Assembly: GCA_903952205.1 (NCBI GenBank)
Contig: CAJBEZ010000076.1
Span: forward strand, 1 to 64,000
DNA from: an uncultured Desulfomonile sp.
GTDB taxonomy: Bacteria > Desulfobacterota > Desulfomonilia > Desulfomonilales > Desulfomonilaceae
DNA: 64,000 nucleotides
Reading direction: 5' to 3'
The stretch's first letter is position 1, and each line of letters begins with the position of its first letter. Position numbers and translations under genes: made by a program. Shown here in pieces: positions 1 to 16,811 of this stretch. The notes below the pieces were generated by a model. It saw only the letters and a program-made list of their open reading frames with translations, did not search any database and was not told where the DNA came from.

Positions 1-22
1 ATCGACACAAGGATGTTCAGTC
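1..22 (-). repeat. Partial copy of tRNA-Phe (attachment-site-like)
   Basis: These bases match positions 11666-11687, which are the anticodon arm and variable loop of the tRNA-Phe gene, in 21 of 22 positions (mismatch at base 15). Similarity stops just past the anticodon loop. The window begins inside the match, so any extension toward the tRNA 3' end cannot be seen. The position and orientation fit the remote attachment site of an element integrated at the tRNA-Phe 3' side. This reading is inference. Confidence 0.55.
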
Positions 23-169
23 TAGCAAAGTAAGTTACTCACGGCCAATTTCCCCAATATCTTCTCAGTATTATGTTTTTGGTCATCATTTGAATTACTC
101 CTGAATACAGGTAAAAGATGATAGCTGTTATGAATCCTTCTTTTTTAACAGTCCATTCCTGTTTCACCC

Positions 170-1591: not shown

Positions 1592-2041
1592 TGTTAAATC
1601 CACCTGTGTGATTGACTCAAATCAGATGCCTACTAGCGAAAGACACCGACTGGGCAACACGTGAGTTTGGGATATATCTTAAAAATGCAATAATTACAAG
1701 AAGATTATTGATTTAATTAAAGTAAAGTTTTATAGAACGTGACGAGGATAACGACGCTGTAAAAACAGCAAATTCAAGGATTACACCAATCTACTGGTCA
1801 AGTTTTTTAACAAATAGCGGCAGATACGCCGTTTTTGGGGCTGAAATATACTTGAACGGGGGATTTACCAGCGGAGACGCGTTATAACGTCCTAACCCAT
1901 AAGCCAATATTAAAAGAAAAATTACACCAAAAAGTATTGAATTGAAACAGGTTTCTTCCAATTCATAATATCTTCCACTGTCCCTTTGATTAATTTAGAA
2001 TAGAATATAAGGAATTGAGATGGTTATAATGACGCCCAATC
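1592..2041. other. Gene-free stretch, 450 bp
   Basis: This AT-rich spacer holds the Shine-Dalgarno site and presumably the promoter of the barrel gene on the minus strand. I see no convincing ORF, RNA gene or strong terminator in it. Confidence 0.5.
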
Positions 2042-2824
2042 CTAAAGGGCCGATTGTGGGCTCGGTCTATATACCAACCCCTTAATCCAGTAGAATACGC
2101 GTCCGTAATATTCGTGTAAAGCTATCCGCGAAATTACAAGGGCATCTTCATACGGAATAAATGATTTGTAAGTCCAGACAAGAGTGTTGTCGAAATCACA
2201 AGGGCACGCAATCGGGTTGGTCCCTTCATTTTTAAAGAGCTCCATGGCCCTCGGGATGTGATAGGCTGAAGTGACTAACGCGAAGGGCCTAGCGCCAACT
2301 ATAGGTTTGAATAACTTGACCTCATCCACAGTGTCCCAAACTCCAGTCTTCAATATCATCACATCCTTCGGAACACCAAGTTGCAAGGGCAATTCAGCCA
2401 TAGCATCCGCCGAACTATAACCAGAGCCAGATAAAACTAGTTTGGCATCTGGATTCTCACGCCACAGACGGATTCCTTCCAAGAGCCTGAAAATTCCTTT
2501 TCCCCATCGGTCCACTGCGGTTGGACGATTCAAAATTGGTTCACCACTCAGGACTACAATATGTTTTACGCCAGCGTCTTTGAGCTTTACCGGGTCAGCG
2601 TACGTCCCGGCCTCTGACTGAAGGCGATGCAATAGAATTAAGTTTGGGAAACTGAGAGAAAAAACAAACAGAATGATTCCGGCAAGGTAGACAAAGACTG
2701 TTCCCAGTCTTTGTCGCCCCATGAACCGAAGGATGAGGGCTATCAGCAGGAGTAGTAACGTGGCTCCAAGCGGGTACATGGGCCATGGGAGTATGTGTTT
2801 TATGTAATAAATCAGATGACTCAT
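2042..2824 (-). CDS. YdcF/ElyC family (DUF218) membrane protein
   Basis: 260 residues. Two hydrophobic segments near the N-terminus (about residues 15-35 and 42-64) precede a soluble DUF218 domain. Family hallmarks are visible: VVLSGE near the start of the domain, KLVLSGSGY, and TSAYHIPRAMELF, which matches the conserved 'TSa.H..Ra...f' box. ElyC of E. coli supports envelope integrity and lipid-carrier-dependent polymer synthesis; the exact reaction of the family is not settled. It probably sits in the inner membrane with the domain outside. The ATG has AGGA directly against it, so translation may be weak or the start may be slightly different. Confidence 0.8.
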   Translation of the reverse strand: MSHLIYYIKHILPWPMYPLGATLLLLLIALILRFMGRQRLGTVFVYLAGIILFVFSLSFPNLILLHRLQSEAGTYADPVKLKDAGVKHIVVLSGEPILNRPTAVDRWGKGIFRLLEGIRLWRENPDAKLVLSGSGYSSADAMAELPLQLGVPKDVMILKTGVWDTVDEVKLFKPIVGARPFALVTSAYHIPRAMELFKNEGTNPIACPCDFDNTLVWTYKSFIPYEDALVISRIALHEYYGRVFYWIKGLVYRPSPQSAL

Positions 2825-2892
2825 TCCTGTTTTAGATGCTTTAATTATTCACTAGATGGCAGAGAATCCGGTTTTCCTTCTGGTTTAGTAAC

Positions 2893-3237
2893 CTATGATT
2901 TGGTTAGTAAATCTAAGCTCATCTTTCTATGTTCCAACTCTTGAATCTGCAATTTCAGTTTTGTTAATTCTTTGTTAATACTTTTCAATTCAGTTTTGGC
3001 TTTCTTTTTTAATAGTATGTCTCTCCCAAGTTTCTCTTCTCCTAATTTTTCAACTTCTGACCTTAATAACCTCAGATATGGGCTACCATAAATGCTTCCT
3101 TCTCGAAATTGGGATTTACCAGCATTAATCGCATCTATAATATCATCCTCTGTCAATCCAAATTCTTTTAATGCGGTATTATCGCTTAGTGTTCCGTCTT
3201 TTTGTGTCCATTCACTATTTGAATTATTTCGACTCAT
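2893..3237 (-). CDS. Small coiled-coil hypothetical protein
   Basis: About 114 residues from the ATG at 3237; a GTG at 3276 gives a longer but less natural N-terminus. The first half contains a helix-turn-helix-like stretch (ALKEFGLTEDDIIDAI) and a conserved-looking YGSPYLRLLRSEVE segment. The second half (about residues 65-105) is Lys/Glu/Leu-rich with heptad spacing, so a coiled coil is likely. No function is recognised. It lies between the ElyC-like gene and the pRiA4b ORF-3 gene on the same strand, inside the accessory region. Confidence 0.5.
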   Translation of the reverse strand: MSRNNSNSEWTQKDGTLSDNTALKEFGLTEDDIIDAINAGKSQFREGSIYGSPYLRLLRSEVEKLGEEKLGRDILLKKKAKTELKSINKELTKLKLQIQELEHRKMSLDLLTKS

Positions 3238-3313
3238 AGTGGCTTTCGTTTCGTATAAAGGTCCGTTGCAACGCACCGTTAGTTCATTGCCGCTATCTTG
3301 AACTAAGTCAAAA

Positions 3314-3868
3314 TTACTTTCTGATAGCCCTTAGTCTTATGTTTGTCTCCTCATTATCAAACAGCTCCGAGTCAAAATCCTTTCCAATCCATTCTGTCCT
3401 TTCATCATATTCAGGGTCATTTGGGTCATTGAGAACATCAAGGAGTTCCATATAGCCCCATGGTCCACCACAATCCTCAGGTGGGCAAGAGCGTTTACCA
3501 GCAAGACAAATGGGATATCGAGTCTTTTCATCCATTGGTAAAATCTTTTCTACTAAAATCACATGCTCCCAGTTGTCACCAAAGTCATACACATAAAGAA
3601 ACTTTTGTTTTTCCTGTAAATTCAACTGATTCAAACGGACTTTTGGCTCTGATGATGTTGCTCTGATGTCGAATTTATGAAGATGTCCATCCTCCCAACC
3701 CATAACTCTTTGTATTATGTTGTGAAGAACCTTGAGAGTAATGTCACCCTTGACCTGAATTCTTCTCCATATAGGGGGTTTGACCTCTTGAAGAGTAATC
3801 TTCATTTGATAAACCAGATTAGTTGGTCCAGTCCCAGTAACTGATTCTTTTTTCGGTTTCTTTGGCAT
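3314..3868 (-). CDS. Plasmid pRiA4b ORF-3-like protein
   Basis: 184 residues. It matches the pRiA4b ORF-3 / IS1096-passenger family (PF07929): YQMKITLQEVKPPIWRRI at the N-terminus, a VLHNIIQ.VMGWEDGHLH.F segment, the signature YDFGDNWEH, and a C-terminal CPPEDCGGPWGY box. The family is common on plasmids and islands and its biochemical role is unknown. The ATG at 3868 is well supported by GGAGGG five or six bases upstream. Its presence fits the mobile character of the region. Confidence 0.85.
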   Translation of the reverse strand: MPKKPKKESVTGTGPTNLVYQMKITLQEVKPPIWRRIQVKGDITLKVLHNIIQRVMGWEDGHLHKFDIRATSSEPKVRLNQLNLQEKQKFLYVYDFGDNWEHVILVEKILPMDEKTRYPICLAGKRSCPPEDCGGPWGYMELLDVLNDPNDPEYDERTEWIGKDFDSELFDNEETNIRLRAIRK

Positions 3869-3967
3869 TTATGCTCCCTCCAATCTATACTTGGATATAC
3901 AGGCACTGAAGAAAGTCACTTTTAAACCATGTTCAGTCATGTTGGCAATATTATGCTCTGTCATCAT

Positions 3968-4205
3968 CTAAATTTCAGAAGACTCATTCAGGATACAAAT
4001 CCTATCTCTTACTGCCTTGAAATCTCCTGGAGTAAGACATGAAATACCCTTCAGGGCCTTAGTTGTAAAAGCGTCAAGGGATTTACCGATTAGGGGCCCC
4101 AAAAGCTTTTCATAGAAAATTATATTTCCATCTGGTTTCAGAATCAGCCTCATCAAAGATTAGGACAGCCCCAAATACAGTAGAACACCCTTCAATTACA
4201 GCTAC
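3968..4205 (-). pseudogene. Remnant of an AAA+ ATPase
   Basis: The minus strand reads FGAVLIFDEADSE just above 4156, which is a clear Walker B segment of an AAA+ ATPase. In another frame it then continues through 4156-3968 as a C-terminal ATPase tail (KALKGISCLTPGDFKAVRDR), resembling the 'LtpGDFk.V' end of AAA proteins. The part normally between Walker B and the tail is missing, and the two pieces are out of frame. The N-terminal half, including Walker A, is absent. I read this as a deleted and frameshifted fossil rather than a functional 62-residue gene. Confidence 0.6.
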
Positions 4206-4239
4206 GAGTTTCAATGTCGTTGATTGCTGTAAAGAGAGA

Positions 4240-4668
4240 CTATTTCTGTCTCTTCCATACCCCTACGCCAATCACGATATCGAAGGCGGTAACATGGCGA
4301 TAAACAACCTCTATAGTGTCCTTGTCGATTATCTTGCCTTCAATAAAACCATCTTCATCTGCATAATATATGGTCTTGTTGTCCAGACCAATCCCAGCAA
4401 CGAATTTCTCAGTGGCCCTTTGAGACTTGAACGTGCCATGCATTATCCTTCCCTGTTGCTGGGTTATGACCGCTTCGGCGTTAAGAGTACTGAAAGCTTC
4501 TTTATGATGTGTCTTCGGGCCTGGTTCCTTTCCTTTTAGTAACACCCCGCCTTCACTCTTAACCACCCATGTTCCAACAAGGTTTGGGATGTCCGAGTCA
4601 GCCATACAGACTGACACACAGAATAGAGTAGCTATCAGCATGGACACGAAACAAATTGACTTCTTCAT
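4240..4668 (-). CDS. Small secreted protein, unknown
   Basis: About 142 residues. A signal peptide (MKKSICFVSMLIATLFC...MADSD) is followed by a small beta-rich domain with LVGTWVVKSEGG, typical of lipocalin-like or membrane-associated beta proteins in which G-T-W follows the first strand; this resemblance is weak. The ATG at 4668 is preferred because AAAGGA lies nine bases upstream; the ATG at 4677 would abut that site. A stem-loop (4692-4714) lies just upstream. Function unknown, periplasmic location likely. Confidence 0.6.
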   Translation of the reverse strand: MKKSICFVSMLIATLFCVSVCMADSDIPNLVGTWVVKSEGGVLLKGKEPGPKTHHKEAFSTLNAEAVITQQQGRIMHGTFKSQRATEKFVAGIGLDNKTIYYADEDGFIEGKIIDKDTIEVVYRHVTAFDIVIGVGVWKRQK

Positions 4669-4691
4669 TTTAATCATCCTTTCCTAACAAT

Positions 4692-4714
4692 ATTCCCTCA
4701 ATTTTGACTTTTGA
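4692..4714 (-). other. Stem-loop upstream of secreted-protein gene
   Basis: CCCTCAA and TTGAGGG form a 7-bp stem extended by A/T pairs. It lies about 10 bases before the Shine-Dalgarno site of the downstream gene. There is no T-tract, so it is not a classic terminator; a leader hairpin is possible. Confidence 0.35.
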
Positions 4715-4975
4715 GGGAGGTATAAGGCTCCTGTGCTATAGCATGAAATTTTACTCTGAAGAAGGGCGTGTAATTGAGAACGCTGTTTGCAGAATACTTA
4801 GTCATTAGGATAGAAAAGAGATACTGACAAAGATAATTATATATCTCATTTGAACCGGCCAGACTTTTAGCCACCCAATCCTTCAATTGGCCCGCTATAC
4901 AGCGAACCAATATTTTTTTGTGGATTATGAAATCATAACCCATTGGTTTATAACGAATTAACCCTACAACGTGAC

Positions 4976-5940
4976 TTAGTGGACATTCAAGACTTCAATC
5001 CCGCACTTCTTTCTGTGTGACAGGTCCTTGAGTGCCGGATCTGACGTCAGCAATTCCGGGACTATTTCCCCCTTGTCCAACAAACGAGCCAGGAATTCCA
5101 GCTCAGCGTCCGTAAAGGGCAAGACCAGGGACAAGGCATCCCTGCACTCGTTTACGAGTCGTGCGCCATAATCAACGAAAGCGCTTTGCTCCTGTATGGC
5201 TTGGAAGTGAAGGGTTGGGAAAAGTTGTCTCGCCAATTCCTCACGCTCAAAAGCCACATTCTCAACCACAACGGTCCTCCAATCCTTGCGGTTCATTGCA
5301 CCGAAGACCACGAAAGTGATGCGGAGCCGTTCCCTGTCGAGCCTGTCCAAACGAAGAATCTGATGACAATCAAACAGATCCCTCGCCTGTCGACGGGATA
5401 GAAGGGCAGCGAGCTTGCCTGCAGCCAGCTCATGGAGGTCGAGAACGGCAATGTTTCTGGCCTGGAAGTTTCCAAGGGGATGCGAGTCCGCATACCGAAT
5501 ATCCCAGAGCGGCAGTCGGAACATGAAATTCAAATCGACTTCGAGGTTGCTCGATTGACCGGTGAAGCTTCGGTAGCTCAGCCGCCATTTCCCGCCGGCG
5601 TGATCGTCCGGCGCTCTTTTGCCAATAAATCCTTCTCTGGAAAAAACCGCCTGGGCAGCTTGCTCTATTTTGGGGCGATCCGACAGCATTTTCTCACGAT
5701 TGAGCCCCCCACGTAATTGAGATCGATATCCACCGACAGTCTGGGCATGTTGAGCACGAAGAGGTTCACGGCCGTGCCGCCTTTCAATACAAGTTTCCCC
5801 TTGAGATAAGGATGCGAACTCAAAGCCTTTAGGAGATTCAACATATGGAGCACTTTTTCGACCACCTCCGGTTTGAACCCGGTCGATTCCGCTATCGGCA
5901 AGATCTCAGACGGTGAAAAATTCACAGCACTTCGCCCCAT
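4976..5940 (-). pseudogene. abiEii: AbiEii-type nucleotidyltransferase toxin, frameshifted
   Basis: The N-terminal part (5940 down to about 5710) carries the AbiEii nucleotidyltransferase motif LVLKGGTAVNLFVL followed by RLSVDIDLNYVG. The rest continues in another frame from NREKMLSDRPKIEQ to the stop at 4976, with the family's DLHELAAGKLAALLSR and ARDLFD segments. The break is at a run of six C on the plus strand (5705-5710); one more base restores a single frame of about 321 residues, a normal length. AbiEii enzymes transfer nucleotides to RNA targets in type IV toxin-antitoxin pairs. The gene may be truly broken, phase-variable, or affected by a sequencing error. Confidence 0.75.
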
Positions 5941-6281
5941 GACTTGTCCAGAATTTCGGTCGGGATCATCAAGTTCCAGTCCTTTACCCGCTGACCGCCT
6001 TTCCGTCCACCTCGCACCCAATAATGCGGCTGCCGAGGACGAAACTTCCGTAAAAGATTCAGATGGGCATCTTCAACCATTAATGTTTCCCTATGCTGCT
6101 CAAGGAAAAAACCCACCTTTGCAGAGGTAGTAGCGTTTTTCAAAAGCAGCGCATAGTCGACGACCTGATCCAAGTCGAAGAACTCAACCGATTCGAGAGA
6201 TCGCCATATCTCTTCCCAGCTTCCTGTCAGCTCCGGCCTAAGGCCGCCTACATCCCTCGGTTCGATGATGAACTTTGGGTT
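5922..6281 (-). pseudogene. abiEi: AbiEi antitoxin, C-terminal fragment
   Basis: The open frame encodes about 119 residues matching the C-terminal domain of AbiEi antitoxins (GSWEEIWRSLESVEFFD, KVGFFLEQHRE, QPHYW, DWNLMIPTEIL). It ends 19 bases inside the AbiEii start, the usual coupled arrangement. The N-terminal winged-helix domain expected of full AbiEi (about 200 residues or more in total) is missing: upstream the same frame runs straight into the TGA of the Doc gene. A TTG at 6173 could start an 83-residue product, but without DNA-binding domain it is probably non-functional. Confidence 0.65.
6221..6258. repeat. Possible third copy of dispersed GC-rich repeat
   Basis: This stretch resembles the 44-bp repeats at 7037-7080 and 7943-7986, sharing the blocks CCTGT, GCTC, GGCCT, GGCCGCCT and ATCCCT around a GGCC..GGCC palindrome, with a 2-base gap. 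It lies inside the AbiEi fragment reading frame. The similarity is weaker than between the other two copies and could be partly chance. Confidence 0.35.
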
Positions 6282-6713
6282 TCACCTGAACGTATCAGTA
6301 GAAATGATTCGATGGTTTATCCAATGAACAAATTCTTCAAAAGCCATTTTGTTCTCGGCTATGGAAAGAGCAACATTCACAATTTCCCTGCTCGTAACAC
6401 CTTTGAGATCTGCCGTGTTCAAATTCAAGAACCAAAACATGGCCGTCATTCCCGTCCGTTTGTTCCCATCCACAAATACATGTCTCGTAATTATATTGAA
6501 TGCGTATACCGCCGCTTTTTCCGCTAGTGTCGGATAAGGATCGCCCTCTATTTCTCCAATCCTTACCACATGAAGAAGATATTCCAAGCTGTTGGGGTTA
6601 TGTAAGACCCCTGCGAAACTGGTCTCTATCCCCTCTGAACTTAAATGCCGACGATGAATTTCTATGAGGTCGGAAAGCTCCAGATACTTTATAACTTGGC
6701 TAGTTTCTTCCAC
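6282..6713 (-). CDS. doc: Doc-type Fic-fold toxin
   Basis: 143 residues. The core motif HVFVDGNKRTG matches the Doc branch of the Fic fold (HxFxDGNKR), in which Lys replaces the Gly of AMP-transferring Fic proteins. Doc of phage P1 phosphorylates EF-Tu and stops translation. Other family features are the N-terminal LIEIHRRHL and the helix PTLAEKAAVYAFNIITRH before the motif. It overlaps the small gene 6689-6883 by 25 bases, as expected for an antitoxin-toxin operon. Its stop codon is directly followed, in the same frame, by the AbiEi fragment. Confidence 0.85.
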   Translation of the reverse strand: MEETSQVIKYLELSDLIEIHRRHLSSEGIETSFAGVLHNPNSLEYLLHVVRIGEIEGDPYPTLAEKAAVYAFNIITRHVFVDGNKRTGMTAMFWFLNLNTADLKGVTSREIVNVALSIAENKMAFEEFVHWINHRIISTDTFR

Positions 6714-6883
6714 GCTGACCGGTATTTTCTGAGAATGTTCTCGAGCATTTCATCTTTGGAGGTTTTGCCATCGGCGGGGCAGGCAACACTCTTTTCCTTC
6801 AATTTAAGATTCCCATGGGTAAGGCGATGAGTCTGGTCGGTTTTGCTGTAAGAGGGGTTGATTTCTGATTTTGTATTTGCCAT
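6689..6883 (-). CDS. Probable antitoxin partner of Doc
   Basis: 64 residues, highly charged, with an N-terminal disordered-looking part (ANTKSEINPSYSKTDQTHRL) and a C-terminal helix (KDEMLENILRKYRSAWKKLAKL). It precedes and overlaps the Doc gene, so an antitoxin role follows from position; it does not show the Phd fold signature. The ATG at 6883 has GGGA seven or eight bases upstream. It may neutralise Doc with the C-terminal helix, as Phd does, but that is inference. Confidence 0.6.
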   Translation of the reverse strand: MANTKSEINPSYSKTDQTHRLTHGNLKLKEKSVACPADGKTSKDEMLENILRKYRSAWKKLAKL

Positions 6884-7036
6884 TGGTGTTTCCCAAGCAG
6901 TTGCTAATGTTTCTTACAGTCTATCTTAATCTAAAGTTCGATAATGATCCAAATAAATATCAAGAAAGTCTCAAAATCATGGCGCTCATCAAAAATAAAA
7001 TTCTGGATTATTCCTCGACCGCTTCTTTGCGCTGGG

Positions 7037-7080
7037 CCCGCCTGTGACGGCTCTGGCCTACGGCCGCCTCTCTCCCTTCC
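7037..7080. repeat. Dispersed GC-rich repeat, copy A
   Basis: This 44-bp segment matches 7943-7986 in 38 of 44 positions. The core is a GGCCT..GGCC palindrome. Both copies are in gene-free DNA flanking the VapBC module, in the same orientation. The composition is far more GC-rich than the surrounding AT-rich spacer (6884-7108), which otherwise holds nothing recognisable. Confidence 0.7.
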
Positions 7081-7108
7081 AGTTTAAGCGACAATTAAAA
7101 AAAGGGAC

Positions 7109-7513
7109 TTAAAAAACTTCCCAATCAATGATCTCAAGGCCATCAACTCTCTGAATTTCTTTGATATTATGAGTAACCAGAATTGATGTGTTAGCAATAG
7201 CGATTGCAGCGATCATCAGATCATTTGGACCTATAATTGTCCCTTTGACTGACAGCCGTGTCCGCAAGTCTCCATAAATCCTTGCCGCTCGATCTCCAAA
7301 AGAAAAAGATACAAAACCTTTGAACAAATTTTCGATGACCGTCAGGTTTTCTTCTTTCCTGGCGCTCTTGTAAGCCCCAAAATACAGTTCAGCTTTGACT
7401 ACCGAGCACAGTCTAATGTCGTCAGGCCGCGTAACAATAAATCGGTCTTTGACAGGGCTGTCCCCTGGATTAAGCAACTTAATCCACACGTTGGTATCAG
7501 GCATGAGGATCAT
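7109..7513 (-). CDS. vapC: PIN-domain toxin VapC
   Basis: 134 residues, the normal VapC length. Acidic PIN residues are visible: D in MPDTNVWIK near the N-terminus, E in VVKAELYFGA, D in GPNDLMIAAIA, and the following THN segment. VapC proteins are Mg-dependent endoribonucleases that cut initiator tRNA or rRNA; the target here is unknown. The start ATG overlaps the stop of the upstream antitoxin gene (ATGA), so the two are translationally coupled. Confidence 0.9.
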   Translation of the reverse strand: MILMPDTNVWIKLLNPGDSPVKDRFIVTRPDDIRLCSVVKAELYFGAYKSARKEENLTVIENLFKGFVSFSFGDRAARIYGDLRTRLSVKGTIIGPNDLMIAAIAIANTSILVTHNIKEIQRVDGLEIIDWEVF

Positions 7514-7743
7514 TTAAGCGGTTCTCTGATCTCGTACTCGCCCTGTTCAGGCCGCGAGAGAGGTTCGCCCTTCCATGCCCCAAGGAACTCATAAGACAAT
7601 TTTTGTTTTTTCCGTTTCTTGTCCGGCTTGACGGGGGCTTCGTCCAACGGCAACAGAATTACCTCGACCGGTCGATTCTTTAGAGAATCCGGCATGTCTA
7701 GCGTTTCCGGGAGGCTTTCGTAAATTTGTCGAACAACGTCCAT
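7510..7743 (-). CDS. vapB: VapB-like antitoxin
   Basis: 77 residues. The first part (VRQIYESLPETLDMPDSLKNRPVEVI) fits the DUF2281-like or short VapB antitoxins that begin with 'P..L..eV..Fi.fL'; the second part is Lys-rich and ends with an acidic tail. The gene lies immediately before vapC with a 4-base ATGA overlap. The start ATG at 7743 has GGGAG eight bases upstream. DNA binding and autorepression would be expected of the pair but no operator is assigned. Confidence 0.75.
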   Translation of the reverse strand: MDVVRQIYESLPETLDMPDSLKNRPVEVILLPLDEAPVKPDKKRKKQKLSYEFLGAWKGEPLSRPEQGEYEIREPLK

Positions 7744-8176
7744 AATTTGTCTCCCATTTTAATCGGGTCTATGATACATCTATCTTACATCAATATAGTA
7801 TCTGTTTCCAGAAATCAGTTTTTTGCAGGGAATCCTCTACGTCAACTATTTGGTGCCTGATTGGCCCGAAATCTCAACAGTTGTTTCCGGATGATTTCTT
7901 GGAAACCTGTCTCTGAACAGGTTCCAGCCACGTCCCTGCCCACCCGCCTGTATCGGCTCTGGCCTGTGGCCGCCTCCATCCCTTCCCCCACATTTCATCT
8001 GACTAGCGATTCTCAAACATTAAGAATGTCAATTCTCTTTTGGACCTATTAGCGCTTCAAAAAAGTTGACATGAGAATTTCAAACTCTATAATAGTATTA
8101 AGACGGGTAAAGCCTACTACGTGCCTGAGGCGCTCCCATCCATCGGTTGGCCATGAGCCTCGGGAACTTAGACGTA
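7744..8176. other. Gene-free stretch with repeat copy B
   Basis: This spacer carries the vapBC upstream region, a short AACCTGT/ACAGGTT hairpin near 7908-7926 and repeat copy B. A 63-codon plus-strand frame crosses the repeat and has no coding features. Nothing else is recognised. Confidence 0.5.
7943..7986. repeat. Dispersed GC-rich repeat, copy B
   Basis: 38 of 44 positions are identical to 7037-7080. The two-base differences inside the palindrome keep the flanking GGCC arms intact, so a small hairpin is preserved in both copies. Confidence 0.7.
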
Positions 8177-8842
8177 TTAGGGGCCGTCTTCATTATTTCC
8201 AGGCAAATATTCGTCCTCAAAGATTATCCATTCACTGAAGAATGAGTACCATTCGTCATCTTGCCTTTCGTGTTTCCTAAAAATACCCCAACTAAAAAGA
8301 TCGGCGGCTTGAAGACCTGGATTATTCTGAGACAGCTCATGTGTAATGAACAGGGGCGTCTCCGCTGGTATCAATCCTTTTAGGTGATTCCCTATGTAAG
8401 TGTCAAAATCCTTGATCTCCTTCCTTGTTTTTGAACGGTCGATGATCAGGTTAACTGCGTTAGTAGTTGTTGGGATGTGCAACTGACCGATTAAGAATCG
8501 AGCAAGGCAATTGTAGAGTTCGGAGCGATTCAATTTCTTTTTCAAATGTCCGTAAGCGCGTTCTTTGTCAAGCACGACCGCATATATACGCCAGCCTGAA
8601 TAAGGTCTATACCTGAAAAAATAATGTTTGACCTCAAGTGATGTGGAGACGCCTTTTAGCTCCTCAAATCGCCATGAGGATCTACGGAGTTTATTCTTTT
8701 TCGCACGTAAAACAGCCCTACCAAATTGATTCACAACAGCACGATTATCGCAGACCAGGAGAGTAATGACGAATTTCTTGGTGGTATTCTCGTTATTGAA
8801 ATCAAATCCCAGATCCCCTGATTCATCTAAAAAAATAAACAT
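8177..8842 (-). CDS. DUF3800 family protein
   Basis: 221 residues. It begins with IFLDESGDLGF, the hallmark N-terminal acidic strand of DUF3800, contains NLIIDRSKT in the middle and ends with the typical NPGLQAADLFSWGIFRKHE segment with its conserved Gln-Ala-Ala-Asp. The family is widespread on islands and phage-like elements and is thought to have an RNase H-like fold with acidic residues; its role is unknown. It is transcribed alone on the minus strand. The start ATG has AAGG very close, so the start is moderately certain. Confidence 0.85.
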   Translation of the reverse strand: MFIFLDESGDLGFDFNNENTTKKFVITLLVCDNRAVVNQFGRAVLRAKKNKLRRSSWRFEELKGVSTSLEVKHYFFRYRPYSGWRIYAVVLDKERAYGHLKKKLNRSELYNCLARFLIGQLHIPTTTNAVNLIIDRSKTRKEIKDFDTYIGNHLKGLIPAETPLFITHELSQNNPGLQAADLFSWGIFRKHERQDDEWYSFFSEWIIFEDEYLPGNNEDGP

Positions 8843-9032
8843 TCCTTACCCTTTTCTGATTAACCCAATGCCGAAGATTTTTGTATCACAAATGGTCTTC
8901 TCAAATATATAAAGAAAAATTTAATTCAGGCCGCAGACTGTGTTCCAACTCCATGTCAACTTTTCGACATGATGGGAATTTCAGTTATTGGCCAAAAAAA
9001 CCCAATGACCTGGGAAAATCATTGGGCGTAAC
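8843..9032. other. Gene-free spacer upstream of the DUF3800 gene
   Basis: The segment contains the minus-strand terminator described separately. A possible coding remnant abuts it at 9033. No other feature is seen. Confidence 0.4.
8994..9026 (-). terminator. Rho-independent terminator
   Basis: CCCAATGA (9001-9008) pairs with TCATTGGG (9019-9026) and is followed on the minus strand by seven T. It lies below the GNAT gene remnant and would end its transcription. A paralogous hairpin occurs at 10229-10264. Confidence 0.75.
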
Positions 9033-9164
9033 TTAGGATGATACTTTTGCTATATCGACTTCGGATGCTCTTTCAAGCGCCCGTTGGCAATCAGTCAATT
9101 TAATGTAAAGATCAACAGTACTATCTCTTTTTCTCTCAAATTTTGTCCAAATTGAACTGAAACA
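9033..9164 (-). pseudogene. Possible coding remnant, 43 codons
   Basis: Between the GNAT remnant and the terminator the minus strand has an open stretch ending RALERASEVDIAKVSS. Its amino-acid composition looks protein-like (charged amphipathic helices), but there is no ATG in frame and a stop lies directly upstream. It may be the C-terminal end of a deleted gene. I do not recognise the family. Confidence 0.25.
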
Positions 9165-9228
9165 TTATAAGAGGATGATTTGGTTAGGATATTTTACGAT
9201 GTGTTGAGATTGAGGTTTTGCGACGAGA

Positions 9229-9787
9229 TTAAAAGAAAATTCCGGGGTCTTGGAAGCGTTTTAAATCATAGTACATCGTCCATGTGGATGCTTTTAGTTC
9301 CCTCTTGCTTTCTGAAATACGCCGAAATCCATTATCCTCATAAAACTTAACTGCATAGTCTCTTTTGTATGCGTCAACAGTAAGGATTCTACAACCAGTG
9401 CGATTTTGAGTCAGAAAGATCGATTTTGTCATGGTCAAGACAAGGTCTACAATATCATCCCCCTGGAAATCCTTATGCACTGCTAGCCGAGCAATCTTGG
9501 CGGCAGGAAGATATTCGTAATAGTTTACCCCTTCCAGTCTTTCAAAATCATTGGCTAAATTCACATGGATTGAGTCATTACAATAACAAATCAAGGCTAC
9601 AGGCGGGTTTTTTTCTGTGATTTGATAACCGTCTCGTGTTAGTAAGTACGTTTTTCCGAGAAGCTCTTACTCATTTTTTACGGCATCAATTTTGAAAAAT
9701 TCATTTAAGTCAGTATCGCCACAATCAAATTGTTTTAAGGAAATTGATGGACAAAGAGGTTCAAGAGTCCATTCTTGAAAAAAGAAT
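9229..9787 (-). pseudogene. GNAT acetyltransferase (toxin-like) with in-frame stop
   Basis: The N-terminal part reads WTLEPLCPSISLKQFDCGDTDLNEFF, typical of GNAT toxins of the AtaT/TacT type. The C-terminal part has the acetyl-CoA-binding region (ARLAVHKDFQG) and FYEDNGFR. The two are in the same frame but separated by a single TAA at 9667-9669, between KNE and ELLGKTYLLTRDGYQI. No clear start codon is visible after the upstream gene, so the 5' end may also be damaged. Intact relatives acetylate charged tRNA. This copy is probably dead unless the stop is suppressed. Confidence 0.75.
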
Positions 9788-9958
9788 CTATTTCTCTCGC
9801 CGTTTAGAGCGTTCCAGAATCTTTTTGCTAACATTTGCAAGTTTAGCGGAAGGACGCCAAACAGGTTCCTTGATATTTTCTTCTCTAGCAAGTCTTTCAA
9901 GGAACTTAATACCCTCTTCGTTTTCCAGAATAGGTGATGGAGCTATCGCAAGAGCCAT
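9788..9958 (-). CDS. Small antitoxin-like protein, partner of GNAT gene
   Basis: 56 residues from ATG 9958 to TAG 9788. It is too short for usual gene calling. The sequence starts MALAIAPSPILENEEGIKFLERL and ends with a basic tail (KKILERSKRREK). It lies immediately upstream of the GNAT reading frame on the same strand, the arrangement of GNAT toxin operons. The fold (RHH or other) is not recognisable by eye. Function as antitoxin is inferred from position only. Confidence 0.55.
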   Translation of the reverse strand: MALAIAPSPILENEEGIKFLERLAREENIKEPVWRPSAKLANVSKKILERSKRREK

Positions 9959-10767
9959 TTGACACCTCTGTTTCGGCCTTTCCTTTTTGTTTATTTTAAG
10001 TGGTTTGTTGAACTAATAGAATCGTTAATCCGTAAACGTTTTCAGCGTCTATCATAAGAAACTGGTCAATTCAATTTATATTACTTTATTCTGATGCCAT
10101 TAGTCAATTTTTGTTTCCTTCTCACCCCCAACGCCCATCCTTTGTGTTTTCGAAGCGTAGGGTTCTTTTCTTCAGCCACTTTTGATATCCTTGGTCCATC
10201 GTGTGGTCCAAAGAAACCACATCGCTGCAAAAAAAACCCCAATAACCTAGGAGAATTATTGGGGGATAATGACTATGCGACGTGGCATCATCATTGAAAC
10301 AGGTTTTTATTTATAGACCTTATCCCCAAATGTCCCAAGCGCCTATGCATGGATCCTCATTTTATCCGGTCCCCCATCATAGGTTATGGGGAACAACGTC
10401 CGAGCGCAAGCGAAAATGTCTCAGATATGGCAATTGCGATGTTAGGTTTTACACTCGACTGAAAGGTCGTCCATTTTATTGAGGTCGCCAGATCTATCCA
10501 AGGGATCGCTTAGACCACTAGACATAAATAATGCATGTCCGTCTGGCCGAATAGATTAGGTAGGGACTGCAACGCAAGAGTCAACAGCTTGCTGTGTGGG
10601 ACTCCTCATCGGGATTGTGGGTGTTACGGCATTCAGAGGCGTTGATCAAGACGCTGTTCCTTTTCAGCGACGATGATGATGTCAAAAAAACCAGCCATCA
10701 AGTTGGCGGTATGAACCCCGGAAGATGATGAGTGATCTTCCTCTAACCTTTTCTTAGGATACATCAT
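9959..10767. other. Gene-free stretch, about 800 bp
   Basis: No supported gene is seen on either strand. Two plus-strand frames of 66-67 codons (10094-10297 and 10282-10482) cross the terminator hairpin and look non-coding. The region may hold the promoter of the rhomboid gene and, given the minus-strand terminator at 10229-10264 with no gene above it, a lost gene or small RNA. Confidence 0.5.
10229..10264 (-). terminator. Rho-independent terminator without an obvious gene
   Basis: CCCCAATAA (10237-10245) pairs with TTATTGGGG (10256-10264), followed on the minus strand by eight T. It has the same layout and loop as the hairpin at 8994-9026, with compensating stem changes. No minus-strand gene lies upstream of it before the plus-strand rhomboid gene. 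Confidence 0.7.
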
Positions 10768-11460
10768 GTGATGATACCACTGCGAGACAAGAATCCGTCG
10801 GGAACCTTTCCCTTCGTCGTCACCGGCATCATTATTCTGAATCTTATTGTTTGGTTCTTTGAATTGTCTCTTAAGGCCAACGTAGAAGTTTTCTTTTTGC
10901 GCTACGGATTGATCCCAAAAGATTTCATGTTGGCTCTCGATCAACATGTGGGACTTTTTGCGAAAACAATAGTACCGGTTTTCTCTTCCATGTTTATGCA
11001 CCAGTCATGGTTACATATAATCTTTAACATGTGGTTTTTGTGGATTTTCGGGGACAATGTGGAAGACCTTCTGGGTCACAGGGGTTTCCTCGCCTTCTAT
11101 TTTACCTGCGGTATCGTGTCGGGCCTTGCCCACGTGTTTGTTCATCCTCATTCGACTCTTCCCATGGTGGGCGCTAGCGGTGCTGTATCAGGAGTGTTGG
11201 GGGCATATGCGTTGCGTTTCCCCAGGGCTCTTATTCTGACATATTATGCAGTCTGGCCATACGAAGTTCGCTCTTACGTATATTTCATAATCTGGTTCGG
11301 ATTACAGTTGGTTCCGGGTCTACTCGAGCTTGGAGGCAATCGGGATGGTGTGGCTGTGGCCTACTGGGCCCACATAGGCGGATTTGTCATAGGGATGGGT
11401 TTGCTCTGGGTCTTTCCGAAGAGGCCCCGTTTTGTGGATCGGTCCCTGAGAGAAACCTGA
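10768..11460 (+). CDS. Rhomboid family intramembrane serine protease
   Basis: About 230 residues with six or seven membrane segments. Catalytic features are present: Ser in GASGAVSG (after PMVGAS), His in AYWAHIGGFVIGM, the HQSWLHIIFNMWFLWIFG stretch with the conserved Asn, and the WxxxG-like region near the N-terminus. Rhomboids cleave transmembrane substrates within the inner membrane; the substrate here is unknown. The start may be GTG 10768 or ATG 10771; AGGA lies 9-12 bases upstream. It is the only plus-strand gene before the tRNA-Phe and may be island cargo or the native neighbour. Confidence 0.9.
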   Translation: MMIPLRDKNPSGTFPFVVTGIIILNLIVWFFELSLKANVEVFFLRYGLIPKDFMLALDQHVGLFAKTIVPVFSSMFMHQSWLHIIFNMWFLWIFGDNVEDLLGHRGFLAFYFTCGIVSGLAHVFVHPHSTLPMVGASGAVSGVLGAYALRFPRALILTYYAVWPYEVRSYVYFIIWFGLQLVPGLLELGGNRDGVAVAYWAHIGGFVIGMGLLWVFPKRPRFVDRSLRET

Positions 11461-11584
11461 AATACGACCCGGCATGGATGGCAAAACAGTGCGACGACCG
11501 GCAAAGTCGAACCGTTGTCTGCCCGATCACACGGCTGGCTCGGCAGCGGTCCTGTTTTTTCGGTGTAATCCCTTCCGAATTAAG

Positions 11585-11628
11585 AAAAAAACCACTCCGA
11601 GTTGTTAATGGCTAACACCCTGGAATGG
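11585..11628 (-). terminator. Terminator of tRNA-Phe
   Basis: On the minus strand CCATTCC pairs with GGAGTGG (one wobble) around an inner GTTA/TAAC stem, followed by seven T. It begins 13 bases after the tRNA 3' CCA. Confidence 0.7.
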
Positions 11629-11640
11629 TTTTGGAATCTG

Positions 11641-11716
<76 letters not shown>

Positions 11717-11815
11717 GACCGATTCCGATACTACCTTTTGACACAGATTGTGTCAACGTGTTTTAGCTAAATTGAATCCCGTATGGCGCCAATCCAGAGT
11801 AGGAACAGCTCGTGT

Positions 11816-13669
11816 TCATCTCTTCAAATAATCACTCGCAAAATTCCGCACTCCTTTATTCCTTAACAGGTGAAATGTTCTCATCTTCCTTACGTGAATA
11901 GGATTCAATGATCCAAGTGGTATATAAACAATCCGGCGTCCCATACTTTTCGCGAGTTTTTTCCATCTGGGAAGGGGAGGCTTTTTGGCCGCGTATACTA
12001 TTCCCGGTTTTTCAGAATAGGCTATCCCAGCCACGAGGAGCCTCTCGTGACGGGTCTCAACAAAGTTAAAGGTTGGGTCTTTCCAAATATCAAACATTCT
12101 CAAAGGAGGGTAGGAAAGTACGAAGCCGCCGTGTTCCATTCTGCTGATACCTGGGCCTACCAAATCATTACCCGGCGCAGTGGAATAGAACGCCATATCT
12201 GATTCTTGCGAATGTTCACCCAACCAGTTCATTTCAAACGGGAAGTTCTCTTTTTCTGGGTCTTCGTCGAAGATTATCACGACTGAACCGAATTCCAGTG
12301 ATCCCTCATCCCGTACCTTCACATAGATCCGATTTTCATGGAATCTTCTCAGAGTCTCCCTAACATCTATACCCGCGCCAAAATCAGAAACAAAAGGTTC
12401 AGAGAGCGACTGGCTTACCTGCATGAGATTCGTGGCATGTTTTGCGAGGGCCTCCCCCCATTTTTCAATCTCGACATCTTCCGGAGGATAAGAACAAATA
12501 TCCACCTGGTCAGGATCGGAATCTTCCCATTTCTGTTTCAGATGATCTTTCCACTTGCGTGAATTTATGGCGTTGAGGCGGTAACGTCTGTTGGGGCCTA
12601 CGAACATCGACCGCAGTCTTTTATGCAGTGTGATCGTATTGCCGTAGTAACGAAGGCTGTCTTCGTCCAATTGAACCGTTGACGGGTCGTTCGGATCATT
12701 TTCCCATTCATAGTCCGCCAGGTATTCATGAACATGGTAGGCAAGATCCTCGTCCATCGCAGCCCTGGCAGATACAACCAGATGGAACAGGTCCGGCATA
12801 ATAAGCTTTTTGGCTTTCAACCACTTTCGAAGGAACTTGGACCATGTTGAACGGACGTATTCCGGTAATTTCTGCCTGGTGTGCCGGCCATAGTAATCAA
12901 TCGCCTCTTTCATGAGATCAACGATCTGTTCATGCCTATCGGCAGGGAAATCGGTATCCCCGTCCCGCCTCCAATTCTCGTAATTTTCCGTAATTCTGGG
13001 GATCTCTGTAAAACCCTTCTTTAGTGACTCCGGATGCAAGGGGGCTATGACAGACTTGGCATTGGCGACTTTCATCAGTGGGGTGGCCTGAGATTTTTCC
13101 AATAGTTCCGATATGAGCTGGATTGATCGGAAACGCCCCACGAATAATACCTTCTCATGGATTCTTGCGGCTTCCTGAAGTCGAGCCGCCATGAATATCC
13201 ATCGAAGTGGATTATCCAGACTGGCGCCTGATTTCAAAATCAAACCCAACTGACTTTCGAAGCAAGTTTTCTGACCTAACAAATCTATCGTGAAAGAATC
13301 GGGAAGATTGTCCGAAGGACCGCGCCGGTGTGTCAGGGTAGGATCGAGAAACCAGACGGGAACACCGAGTTCAACGCCGCTCCTGATAGCCTCGAAGATG
13401 CCATCTGACCCCTCTATAATGAATCCCGAATACTGGTTCGAATCGTTTCCATAGATAATTACAGAATGGTAAGGGAGTTGACGCACCCCTTCCAAAATGT
13501 TTTCACGCAGAGACACGGGAGATTCGACGCATATTACATTCGGTTTTTCATGGAGAACCAGCGACCTGACCTGAGTTGCAAACTCAATCCTATAATCTAT
13601 AGAGCCTACTAGAGTGATTGTTCCCGACCGAACAACATCAAACCAGCGTTGGCCCATCATATGCGACAC
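11816..13669 (-). CDS. Large TraB/DUF5682-like protein paired with MoxR ATPase
   Basis: 617 residues, no membrane segments. The N-terminal 230 residues resemble TraB/ChaN/EreA-fold proteins as found in DUF5682: TITLVGSIDYR, then PNVICVESP, GVPVWFLDP and later EKVLFVGRFRSIQLISELL, matching the order 'H.G..s / vE.P / p..fiD / vvG..H'. The rest is charged, helical and unrecognised. It overlaps the upstream MoxR-type ATPase by 32 bases, so they form one transcription unit. DUF5682 proteins are known beside MoxR and VWA proteins in poorly understood systems; no VWA gene is adjacent here. The similarity is weak and by eye; the activity is unknown. Confidence 0.5.
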   Translation of the reverse strand: MSHMMGQRWFDVVRSGTITLVGSIDYRIEFATQVRSLVLHEKPNVICVESPVSLRENILEGVRQLPYHSVIIYGNDSNQYSGFIIEGSDGIFEAIRSGVELGVPVWFLDPTLTHRRGPSDNLPDSFTIDLLGQKTCFESQLGLILKSGASLDNPLRWIFMAARLQEAARIHEKVLFVGRFRSIQLISELLEKSQATPLMKVANAKSVIAPLHPESLKKGFTEIPRITENYENWRRDGDTDFPADRHEQIVDLMKEAIDYYGRHTRQKLPEYVRSTWSKFLRKWLKAKKLIMPDLFHLVVSARAAMDEDLAYHVHEYLADYEWENDPNDPSTVQLDEDSLRYYGNTITLHKRLRSMFVGPNRRYRLNAINSRKWKDHLKQKWEDSDPDQVDICSYPPEDVEIEKWGEALAKHATNLMQVSQSLSEPFVSDFGAGIDVRETLRRFHENRIYVKVRDEGSLEFGSVVIIFDEDPEKENFPFEMNWLGEHSQESDMAFYSTAPGNDLVGPGISRMEHGGFVLSYPPLRMFDIWKDPTFNFVETRHERLLVAGIAYSEKPGIVYAAKKPPLPRWKKLAKSMGRRIVYIPLGSLNPIHVRKMRTFHLLRNKGVRNFASDYLKR

Positions 13670-14480
13670 GCCTGACTCCTGTAATTTGAAGTATCGCCTG
13701 GTCCAAAGCTCGATCTTCCGACAACCTGGATCTAAATTTCAACAGCCTGTGCGCATACCTCGATATATTCAAACCATCCCTTACGCTAAGGTCTTCATCT
13801 TTTTTGTGAGAATCCTGAAGCAAATCAACTACATTTTGGATGATAGAATCCGGGGGACCATCCAGCTTACCCCTGATTATTTTGAATTCCTCTTCACGGG
13901 TAGGATAATCCATCTGAATTCCGGGCTGTAATCGAGAGTAAATGTACTCTGGAACTTCAAATGTGGACGCGTCTTCATTCATGGTAACACATATCCGGAA
14001 CTCTGGTTTTGCCTTGATTTCTACACCGGCTATTATAGAATAGACTGATCGTCTCATATCCAGTAGTGAAGCAATTGAAGCCCAACTCTTCTCACTCATC
14101 CGGTTGCCTTCATCCAGCAGACATATCCCCCCCTTGATCATGGCCGTAACAAGAGGAGAAGCCACATAACGGATTTTCCCTTCCTCCGCTATAACTGGCG
14201 TAACAATAAGATCTTCGGGTTTGGTATCTACTGTGCATTGAAAAACGTATAATTCCTGCTTCATTCTCTTGGCTGCGGTAATGGCCAGTGAGGTCTTACC
14301 GACCCCGGGTTTACCCAGAATTCTAGGTTGCATAGGCGGATCATCACCGTCATCAGACCAGGCGGCCAGAAGTTGGATCAACGGCTCTTCCATTCCAACC
14401 CAGTCAACATTGAGATCAGGCGGATCAATCAAATGAATCTGAACGCCTTTAATTGATAAAACTTCGGATTGTTTCCCCAT
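13638..14480 (-). CDS. MoxR-type AAA+ ATPase
   Basis: About 280 residues. Walker A is GKPGVGKTS, Walker B is GGICLLDEGNRM, with the MoxR-typical Asn-Arg after the acidic pair, and a sensor segment FRICVTMNEDA. The lid region follows. MoxR ATPases remodel or activate partner complexes, often with VWA proteins. The ATG at 14480 has GGGGAAGAG eight bases upstream; a longer start at 14543 (TTG/ATG) has a poor site. The gene overlaps the large TraB-like gene downstream by 32 bases. Confidence 0.85.
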   Translation of the reverse strand: MGKQSEVLSIKGVQIHLIDPPDLNVDWVGMEEPLIQLLAAWSDDGDDPPMQPRILGKPGVGKTSLAITAAKRMKQELYVFQCTVDTKPEDLIVTPVIAEEGKIRYVASPLVTAMIKGGICLLDEGNRMSEKSWASIASLLDMRRSVYSIIAGVEIKAKPEFRICVTMNEDASTFEVPEYIYSRLQPGIQMDYPTREEEFKIIRGKLDGPPDSIIQNVVDLLQDSHKKDEDLSVRDGLNISRYAHRLLKFRSRLSEDRALDQAILQITGVRRVAYDGPTLV

Positions 14481-14618
14481 AGTATGACTCTTCCCCAAGA
14501 TTCGGAAGTTCTCCTGGAATATTCTTAAAATCAAGTCCATCAAATTCTATTCGACCGCACATAAGGTGTCAACCAGTCCAACGATTCTTAACCCAATCGT
14601 AGGGCTCATTACATTTGA

Positions 14619-15803
14619 TTACAGAAAATGGCTGAAAACAATATTCGAAAGTAGCCTTCCCCGGGGAGTCAATCTTATCATGTTTTTGTGTATTTCGTAG
14701 AGTCCTGCGGACTTGAGGTCATGGAGGGATTCATCTACAAATGAATACGCGTCAAACCCGTAATAATCGCCCATCAGTTCCAGATCCACACCATCTGTAA
14801 GCCTTAATCCCATGATCATGGCGTCCTTGAACCTGGTTAAAGCGTCCATATCCGTGAACGAATCAATTAAGGGACCCCCATGAGCTGTAATCTCCAGGTA
14901 TTTTTCAAGATCAACAATGTTGGAGTACCTAGCCCTTCCAGTCATTCCGTGAGCGGCAAGTCCAAGTCCCAGGAAAATCTTGTCAGACCAGTATTTCATG
15001 TTATGCCGAGATTCCATACCTTTCTTAGAGAAATTGGATATTTCGTACTGCTGGAATCCTGATTCCTGTATCTTTGAGCAAATTGTCTCGTAAATGTCGG
15101 CCAGAACATCATCGTCAAGTAATCTCAATCCTCCGTTTCTTGAATCGCGTTCCAGAGGCGAGCCTGTTTTTATCTCAAGGAGATAAACCGATATGTGGTC
15201 CGGTTCCAATTCAATAATGCCCTTTACACTTTTCATGATGGATTTAATAGTTTGCCCCGGATAACCAGCTAGCAGATCAACTGAAATGTTTTCGAATCCT
15301 GCTGACCTCGCCGCACTGTAGAGATTGGTGAAATCGCGACTCGAGTGCGATCGGCCCATTTTTTGAAGTTCAGAATCATTTAACGATTGCGCTCCGATAC
15401 TTAAGCGGGTAATTCCCGTACCGCGCAATACATCTAATTTATCCTTCCCGTAGGTTCCAGGATTGACTTCAATAGTTATCTCAATTGGGTTCGTAGGTAT
15501 TAATGTTTCCGAAACAGAGCGAAGTAATCTTCCAAAGGTATTGGGATCAAGAACAGAAGGAGTTCCACCTCCGAAATAGATGCTGTCAACTTTTTTGGGA
15601 AAGGAACCGCTAATGAGAACCGGAGAGGAATCGAGATGTTGGATTTCCCTAGTCAGGGCATCGATGTAAAGATTCTCCAACATGGTGTCGGAAGTGTATG
15701 AAACAAATCCACAGTAGTTGCATCTAGTCATACAGAAAGGTATGTGGATGTAAACGCCGATGGGGTCCAGGTCATCAGGGAATTTCTGAGGCTGGTTAGA
15801 CAT
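14619..15803 (-). CDS. hemW: HemW-like radical SAM protein
   Basis: About 394 residues from ATG 15803. It has the radical SAM cluster motif CMTRCNYC (C-x3-C-x2-C), the HemN/HemW signatures YIHIPFC, YFGGGTPS, SIGAQS and VDLLAGYPGQT, and a HemW C-terminal domain (YEISNFSKKG...HNMKYW, LGLGLAAHG). HemW is a heme-binding chaperone for heme insertion rather than a coproporphyrinogen dehydrogenase; the YEISNFA-type box and the length support HemW. A longer frame to 15965 is unlikely to be the start. Confidence 0.88.
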   Translation of the reverse strand: MSNQPQKFPDDLDPIGVYIHIPFCMTRCNYCGFVSYTSDTMLENLYIDALTREIQHLDSSPVLISGSFPKKVDSIYFGGGTPSVLDPNTFGRLLRSVSETLIPTNPIEITIEVNPGTYGKDKLDVLRGTGITRLSIGAQSLNDSELQKMGRSHSSRDFTNLYSAARSAGFENISVDLLAGYPGQTIKSIMKSVKGIIELEPDHISVYLLEIKTGSPLERDSRNGGLRLLDDDVLADIYETICSKIQESGFQQYEISNFSKKGMESRHNMKYWSDKIFLGLGLAAHGMTGRARYSNIVDLEKYLEITAHGGPLIDSFTDMDALTRFKDAMIMGLRLTDGVDLELMGDYYGFDAYSFVDESLHDLKSAGLYEIHKNMIRLTPRGRLLSNIVFSHFL

Positions 15804-16001
15804 TGTGTGGCTATCATAACATTGTATTATGCCGACATAAATGGTATTTTGTATAATTGGATGAATTGTAATCAAAGATAATGAAAGTGAATTTGTAGCG
15901 ATCTGCTGAATAGCCTTTCGATATTGGAAACAAGCGGTTCTGGACATAAATTTCGATCTACCCATACTAATTTTATTTTTAACTGTAAAGGAGTGAGGAT
16001 A

Positions 16002-16811
16002 ATGGAAAATGTCTTGACGCCAAGTGAATCCGGCGCTTTAACAAGCGTTCAGGTCCTGAAAGATATCGGGATCGTCACTATGAACAATCCTCACAAAGCC
16101 AACTGTTTAAGTTCTGAGCTTGTTTCCGGAATAATGGCGGCTTTTGATATGTTCGAGAAGTCATCGGTTCGCACCGTAATTTTGAGAGCTTATCCAGGGG
16201 CCAAAGTGTGGTCGGCCGGCCATGATATAAAGGAGATCCCTCTGGACAACCAGGATCCTCTTACATGGAATGTTCCTTTTGAAAAACTCCTCCGGCGAGT
16301 TCGTTGTTATGGTAGTCCAGTCATCGGAATGATAGAAGGAAGTGTCTGGGGAGGCGCATGTGATCTCGCCATGACATGTGATCTTTTGGTTGGAACCCAT
16401 TCAGCGAGTTTTGCGATAACTCCGGCTAAAATAGGCCTATCTTACAATACTTCGGGTCTGACTCATTTCCTGGGAGTCCTCCCTCTTCACATCGTCAAGG
16501 AAATGCTTTTTACCGCCAAACCTCTTCCATCAGAAGACGCTTACCGATTCGGCCTTTTGAATCGTCTGGTAGAACCGGATCAGCTTGAAACGATCACCTA
16601 TCAGTTGGCCGAAGATATAGCCAACATGGCCCCAAAGGTCATTCGTGTTCTGAAGCATGAACTTCGCGCCCTTACATCTGGTCCAAACCTCAGTCCCTAT
16701 GATTTTGAGGAGATACAGAACCTTCGCAGAGAGGCTTATCGTAGCGACGATTTCAAGAACGGAATTGCCGCTTTTTTCGAAAAACGAACACCGCAGTTTA
16801 AGGACGAATAG
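16002..16811 (+). CDS. scpB: Methylmalonyl-CoA decarboxylase (crotonase family)
   Basis: 269 residues. It follows E. coli ScpB/YgfG closely: VILRAYPGAKVWSAGHDIKEIP, IGMIEGSVWGGACDLA, ITPAKIGLSYN, HIVKEMLFTA and the C-terminal FEEIQNLRREAY...FFEKRTPQF. The enzyme decarboxylates methylmalonyl-CoA to propionyl-CoA. The start ATG has AAAGGAGTGAGG upstream. With the class III CoA-transferase downstream it suggests a succinate/propionate or methylmalonyl-CoA route; fumC lies between them. Confidence 0.85.
   Translation: MENVLTPSESGALTSVQVLKDIGIVTMNNPHKANCLSSELVSGIMAAFDMFEKSSVRTVILRAYPGAKVWSAGHDIKEIPLDNQDPLTWNVPFEKLLRRVRCYGSPVIGMIEGSVWGGACDLAMTCDLLVGTHSASFAITPAKIGLSYNTSGLTHFLGVLPLHIVKEMLFTAKPLPSEDAYRFGLLNRLVEPDQLETITYQLAEDIANMAPKVIRVLKHELRALTSGPNLSPYDFEEIQNLRREAYRSDDFKNGIAAFFEKRTPQFKDE

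Follow-up and report, generated by a model that had tools for sequence, protein, structure and literature searches.

Two overlapping genes of an uncultured Desulfomonile sp. code for a MoxR-type AAA+ ATPase and a 617-residue partner protein. The two are obligately co-inherited. As the pair is co-inherited in dozens of bacterial families and is absent, as a pair, from family databases, it looks like an undescribed machine. The preferred reading, to which we give about an even chance, is that of a dedicated, vertically inherited two-component MoxR remodeling system, with a Tiki-fold protein in the place of the VWA co-chaperone. MoxR ATPases are widespread, few of them have known targets, and a VWA partner is usually assumed. 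The pair described here is uncharacterized, tightly co-inherited and VWA-free, and it occurs in several hundred genomes, including those of culturable Geomonas and chlamydial relatives. It offers a test case for MoxR rings that work without VWA.

Gene Layout and Genomic Context

The pair lies on the minus strand of the window, the whole stretch of 64,000 nucleotides that was analyzed. Its features, with the adjoining tRNA as context, are as follows:

13638–14480, minus strand: gene of the MoxR-clade AAA+ ATPase, 280 aa from the ATG
11816–13669, minus strand: gene of the 617-aa partner protein (the large protein), without a named family, GTG start
12950–13669, minus strand: N-terminal domain of the large protein (residues 1–240), TraB/Tiki/ChaN/EreA fold by AlphaFold model, fold rows and profile matches
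13595–13597, minus strand: codon 25 of the large protein, Asp (the first Tiki-type His, GxxH, in 52 of 58 relatives)
13124–13126, minus strand: codon 182 of the large protein, Ser (the second Tiki-type His, GGxxH, in 52 of 58 relatives)
12515–12949, minus strand: middle region (residues 241–385), mainly helical, model confidence partly low
11819–12514, minus strand: C-terminal alpha/beta domain (residues 386–617), the best-conserved part, fold matches non-significant
11641–11716, minus strand: tRNA-Phe, approximately 100 bp downstream of the pair and outside the system

Both open reading frames and the 32-base overlap reported in the initial annotation are present. The overlap spans positions 13638–13669 and recurs in most family relatives. 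The ATPase frame could also be opened from a TTG at 14543 (13638–14543, 301 aa). The ATG at 14480, which fits the end given in that annotation, is the better start, and the sequence GGGGAAG lies upstream of it. An Rfam search of positions 11400–16500 returned the tRNA and no further element.

Of 11 family loci examined, nine have tRNA-Phe after the pair, and many have a HemW-like gene before it. Since the pair lies 5′ of the tRNA, in a synteny common to its relatives, it belongs to the core genome and is not island cargo. The initial annotation had placed the pair beside a tRNA used by an island; the tRNA-Phe does adjoin it and an island is possible, but the pair lies outside that island. Positions 1–11640 may represent an island whose insertion site was the 3′ end of tRNA-Phe, as a cluster of AbiEii (apparently split over two frames), Fic, PIN, DUF3800 and GNAT genes (4976–9594, minus strand) lies 3′ of that gene and a fragment of tRNA-Phe, 22 bp long (95%), occupies window positions 1–22, in direct orientation, at the start of the contig. 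A 38-bp copy of tRNA-Phe was also seen on another contig of the genome (C95).

Co-Inheritance and Distribution

The large protein was found in 21 of the closest 60 genomes. The copies of 13 same-family relatives are full-length and 57–76% identical, each beside an AAA gene. A single-protein search of viral and genome contigs gave no match; an alignment-based scan of GTDB genomes yielded 573 relatives of the large protein. For the best 80 of these 573, 74 loci contain the AAA gene, and in approximately 70 it lies directly upstream; adjacency was counted by tblastn because a greedy ORF caller had overlooked the pair at some loci rich in G+C. Across 148 Desulfobacterota genomes, the large protein and the AAA subfamily occur in an identical set of 25, one copy each, and neither gene is found alone in any of them. 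Even where the two genes are non-adjacent (ten genomes), the AAA gene is still carried in nine; of these nine copies, one is a stop-containing fragment, and two share a contig with the large-protein gene at a distance of a few kb. The distance matrices of the two proteins correlate with an r of 0.94, a value reached in none of 999 permutations. Recurrent pairing with MoxR, on which the initial annotation had made its case depend, is thereby established. That annotation had also singled out the pair as the best candidate in the window for an undescribed system; the conserved pairing and the lack of a named family for the large protein agree with a putative undescribed system.

Relatives are distributed among the Desulfobacterota, Geobacterales, Chlamydiae and Bryobacterales. 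A Neochlamydia plasmid carries the same pair, annotated merely as an AAA family ATPase and a hypothetical protein. The distribution is patchy, with approximately 16% of Desulfobacterota genomes holding the pair.

The absence of a VWA gene from the locus, as first annotated, is borne out: none stands beside the window pair, which is therefore not a MoxR-VWA pair. The host genome (99.99% complete) contains only two VWA genes, both on other contigs, and their products are long, VIT-VWA-like proteins with signal-like N-termini. In 1.04 Mb of sequence flanking 80 copies of the pair, no YehP-type VWA, SWIM, DUF5691 or DUF4132 gene was detected. As the YehP-type VWA profile missed the VIT-VWA proteins of the host, this search excludes the YehP type alone. 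The rest is covered by a recurrence count over the 80 loci, in which no gene family besides the pair was present in more than 10.

The MoxR-Type ATPase

The ATPase of the window matches the AAA_5 model at 7.7e-19. It carries the features by which MoxR-clade AAA+ proteins are recognized (an AAA_5 or AAA_3 match, Walker A, Walker B, sensor 1 and an arginine finger), in the form of GKPGVGKT, LLDE, a sensor-1 Asn and an Arg finger. Residues G77–T84, D144–E145, N189, R204 and R255 are invariant across relatives. The relatives with solved structures are midasin, CbbQ and NorQ. The model match, the full motif set and these relatives together confirm the MoxR-type identity first proposed. Remote profile similarity links the protein to YehL (E 1.4e-5), whose type carries a GxPGTAKS P-loop in contrast to the GKPGVGKT seen here. 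A PADLOC scan of the ATPase gave weak generic matches only. The AAA protein would form a hexameric ring and hydrolyze ATP.

The Large Protein

The large protein of the window on its own matched no model of Pfam, NCBIfam, PADLOC or PHROGs, in keeping with the initial view that it could not be placed firmly. A Pfam scan of 58 members gave weak DUF5682 matches in 37 (best 1.1e-5) and TraB matches in seven, with the ChaN and erythromycin esterase models matching one member each; the NCBIfam TraB model matched five. Alignment of the family to DUF5682 by hhalign gave a probability of 95.9% and an E of 5.9e-9 over residues 16–416, mainly in the N-terminal domain. The AlphaFold model (pLDDT 80) placed residues 1–195 in VIA-align rows with ChaN (2g5g; Z 7.1, rmsd 5.2, 156 aligned), HopBA1 (Z 7.1), EreC (Z 6.2) and BcR135 (Z 6.0), individually moderate scores that the Pfam and NCBIfam sequence models support. 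The C-terminal region of the Pasteurella toxin and RRSP also aligned over these residues. At the top of the rows for the model stands a complex IV subunit of Tetrahymena (Z 10.6). A Foldseek search with this full-length model found no PDB or BFVD match at E < 0.001, and a PDB sequence search with the whole protein found no credible match.

The Tiki-fold rows are for the most part members of the TIKI superfamily as listed in PMC6254334, and the parallel-sheet core fold of TIKI/TraB is present in the window protein. The N-terminal domain thus has the TraB/Tiki/ChaN/EreA fold and is remote kin of DUF5682. Given the weak DUF5682, TraB and ChaN matches, the profile comparison and the fold rows, the TraB-like N-terminal third suggested in the initial annotation holds. 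The annotation also compared the protein with DUF5682, a family to which it does not belong, as the likeness is confined to the N-terminal part, with an unrelated C-terminal domain, and the operon partners are absent. Through this pair, DUF5682/YehM, a group so far unstudied, is connected with the Tiki superfamily.

TIKI enzymes have a 2His/2Glu active site, and a Tiki-fold protein without this site has been described (PMC6254334). The corresponding positions in the family, assigned from motif position and not by superposed coordinates, are His25, Glu49 and His182. Glu29 and Glu49 are invariant in all 58 members. Both histidines are retained in 52, and the other six have lost both together. 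These six include the genus of the window (D25, S182), a Desulfomonile relative (L036) and a Bryobacterales copy (L106), and the joint loss spans three lineages. With Asp25 and Ser182, the window protein lacks the catalytic 2His/2Glu set and is predicted from its sequence to be inactive as a TIKI hydrolase. As the Tiki histidines are lost in this bacterium, its N-terminal domain most likely binds a target and does not cut it. This natural loss separates the scaffold from the enzyme function.

Hydrolase activity of the N-terminal domain is possible in most relatives, and the large protein could be a Tiki-family hydrolase or protease that is fed or activated by the AAA ring. The GxxH, Glu49 and GGxxH of the 52 members do follow the Tiki/TraB active-site pattern (PMC6254334). 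We nevertheless consider this role unlikely for the pair. The window copy and two more lineages lack both histidines and retain the pair, and conservation is higher in the C-terminal than in the N-terminal domain; hydrolysis at the Tiki site is therefore not the common essential function.

Median identity is 57% in the C-terminal domain, compared with 42% and 40% in the other parts of the protein. Its conserved motifs are CSYPPED, DGIDxRETIR, FDED, WLGEHxQESDMAFY, GPGI and YPPxRxYDIW. The domain was modeled alone with a pLDDT of 82. A match to the C-terminus of DUF5682 was tried and rejected (hhalign E 0.25). Searches with the domain gave nothing at E < 0.001 in PDB or BFVD by Foldseek (best E 0.4) and no credible match in a PDB sequence search. 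Weak structure rows, every one with Z < 3, are mostly RNase H-like folds, and the order of strands and helices is compatible with an RNase H-like core (beta-beta-beta-alpha-beta-alpha-beta). This likeness serves as a lead only. It is conceivable, though we lean against it, that the pair defines a VWA-free MoxR class in which the Tiki-fold partner is dead in some lineages and the C-terminal domain, a new fold or a diverged RNase H-like one, provides a new activity.

Proposed Function

In the two-component remodeling system favored here, the large protein would be the obligate partner of the ATPase ring and would fill the role that a VWA co-chaperone has in NorQ-NorD, CbbQ-CbbO or YehL-YehP. A protein or small-molecule target may be recognized by the Tiki-fold N-terminal domain, and the highly conserved C-terminal domain may carry the essential output or dock on the ring. 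The system would most likely mature or reshape some cellular target in normal physiology, as opposed to acting in mobile defense. Two observations stand against this proposal. The patchy distribution is unusual for a housekeeping function, and one genome of the same class has a remote pair among TIR, RyR-AAA, SLOG and NB-ARC genes, which suggests that this copy, if no other, acts in conflict.

An anti-phage or conflict system would account for that locus. The AAA protein would set the threshold and the large protein would act as sensor and effector, as has been proposed for the MoxR-vWA ternary systems, which are known conflict systems (PMC7159879). The locus in question (L028, genome G020) encodes a remote homologue of full length (hhalign E 2e-27), which a homologous AAA gene adjoins. 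Together with a ThsB-type TIR gene, this remote pair probably forms an operon; RyR-AAA, SLATT, SLOG and NB-ARC-TIR genes lie beside it, and the patchy distribution also fits defense. Positions 435–15278 of the locus hold SLATT, RyR-AAA, ThsB-TIR, the remote pair, TPR, SLOG and TIR-NB-ARC, in one direction around the pair. Such a conflict type was rejected as a recurrent class, being found in one of 395 genomes and in no plasmid match. None of the 58 large-protein members has a PADLOC match. Matches to the large protein numbered none in phages, one in plasmids and two in viral contigs. The neighbors across the 80 loci are diverse and ordinary, without recurrent defense genes, and the pair co-evolves within a conserved core synteny. 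Island cargo or mobile defense is at odds with where the pair lies and how it is distributed, and a defense role for the pair appears improbable.

There is a similarly small chance that the pair is a chaperone for the insertion of heme or metal cofactors, akin to CbbQ and NorQ. The AAA protein resembles both, and the best fold rows include ChaN, which has the Tiki fold and binds heme. Certain neighbors of the AAA gene point the same way: a HemW-like gene in Desulfomonilaceae, a ferrochelatase-like gene in Geobacterales and an XdhC-like gene in one family, all named by eye except the HemW-like gene of the window. The ferrochelatase-like and HemW-like genes precede the AAA gene; the XdhC-like gene follows it in L184 and L187. 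L182, L191 and L068 are among the further loci with such neighbors. However, the neighbors are unrelated in most lineages, the link was spotted after the fact and a common target enzyme gene is absent.

The idea that the pair is a divergent DUF5682 (YehM) system is very improbable: the gene order, AAA before a DUF5682-like protein, is that of E. coli yehL-yehM, and the profile match covers residues 16–416, but this match lies mainly in the N-terminal domain, the C-terminal domain bears no relation to that of DUF5682, the P-loop differs, VWA (YehP type), SWIM, DUF5691 and DUF4132 are absent from the 80 loci, and Pfam DUF5682 matches none of 60 relatives, nor the window protein at its curated cut-off.

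Comparison with Known Systems

With the MoxR-vWA ternary conflict systems (VMAP, iSTAND, FtsH, beta-propeller; PMC7159879), the proposed remodeling pair shares a MoxR switch and a large partner. It differs in having no vWA, no recurrent third component and no effector modules, and in a conflict neighborhood limited to the one remote case. The NorQ-NorD, CbbQ-CbbO, RavA-ViaA and CoxD-CoxE systems likewise combine a MoxR AAA protein with one dedicated partner gene, but the partner here is a Tiki-fold protein without a VWA domain. The N-terminal fold is that of the TIKI/TraB/ChaN/EreA superfamily, as is the order of motifs (GxxH, the Glu of VELP, GGxxH) in most members. Unlike this superfamily, the large protein has additional helical and conserved C-terminal domains, and in the genus of the window both histidines are missing.

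The E. coli YehL-YehM-YehP-YehQ system consists of a MoxR ATPase, a DUF5682 protein, a VWA protein and a SWIM protein. None of the papers searched mentions DUF5682, and at least two of the yehLMPQ genes together come up in only two papers, incidentally. Most annotated DUF5682 reference loci contain several of VWA, SWIM, DUF5691 and DUF4132, compared with none of the 80 loci here. A Streptomyces plasmid locus (L113, 4796–11594) contains an AAA gene, a 1257-residue DUF5682 protein and a hypothetical gene, with no VWA or SWIM annotated. As in the Yeh system, a MoxR-type AAA gene directly precedes that of a large protein whose N-terminal domain is TraB-like, and both proteins show remote profile similarity to their counterparts. 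The pair differs from it in the four missing partner families, an unrelated C-terminal domain, another P-loop and a shorter partner protein. The pair is not a member of the Yeh system; its closest analogue is E. coli YehL-YehM minus the VWA and SWIM components.
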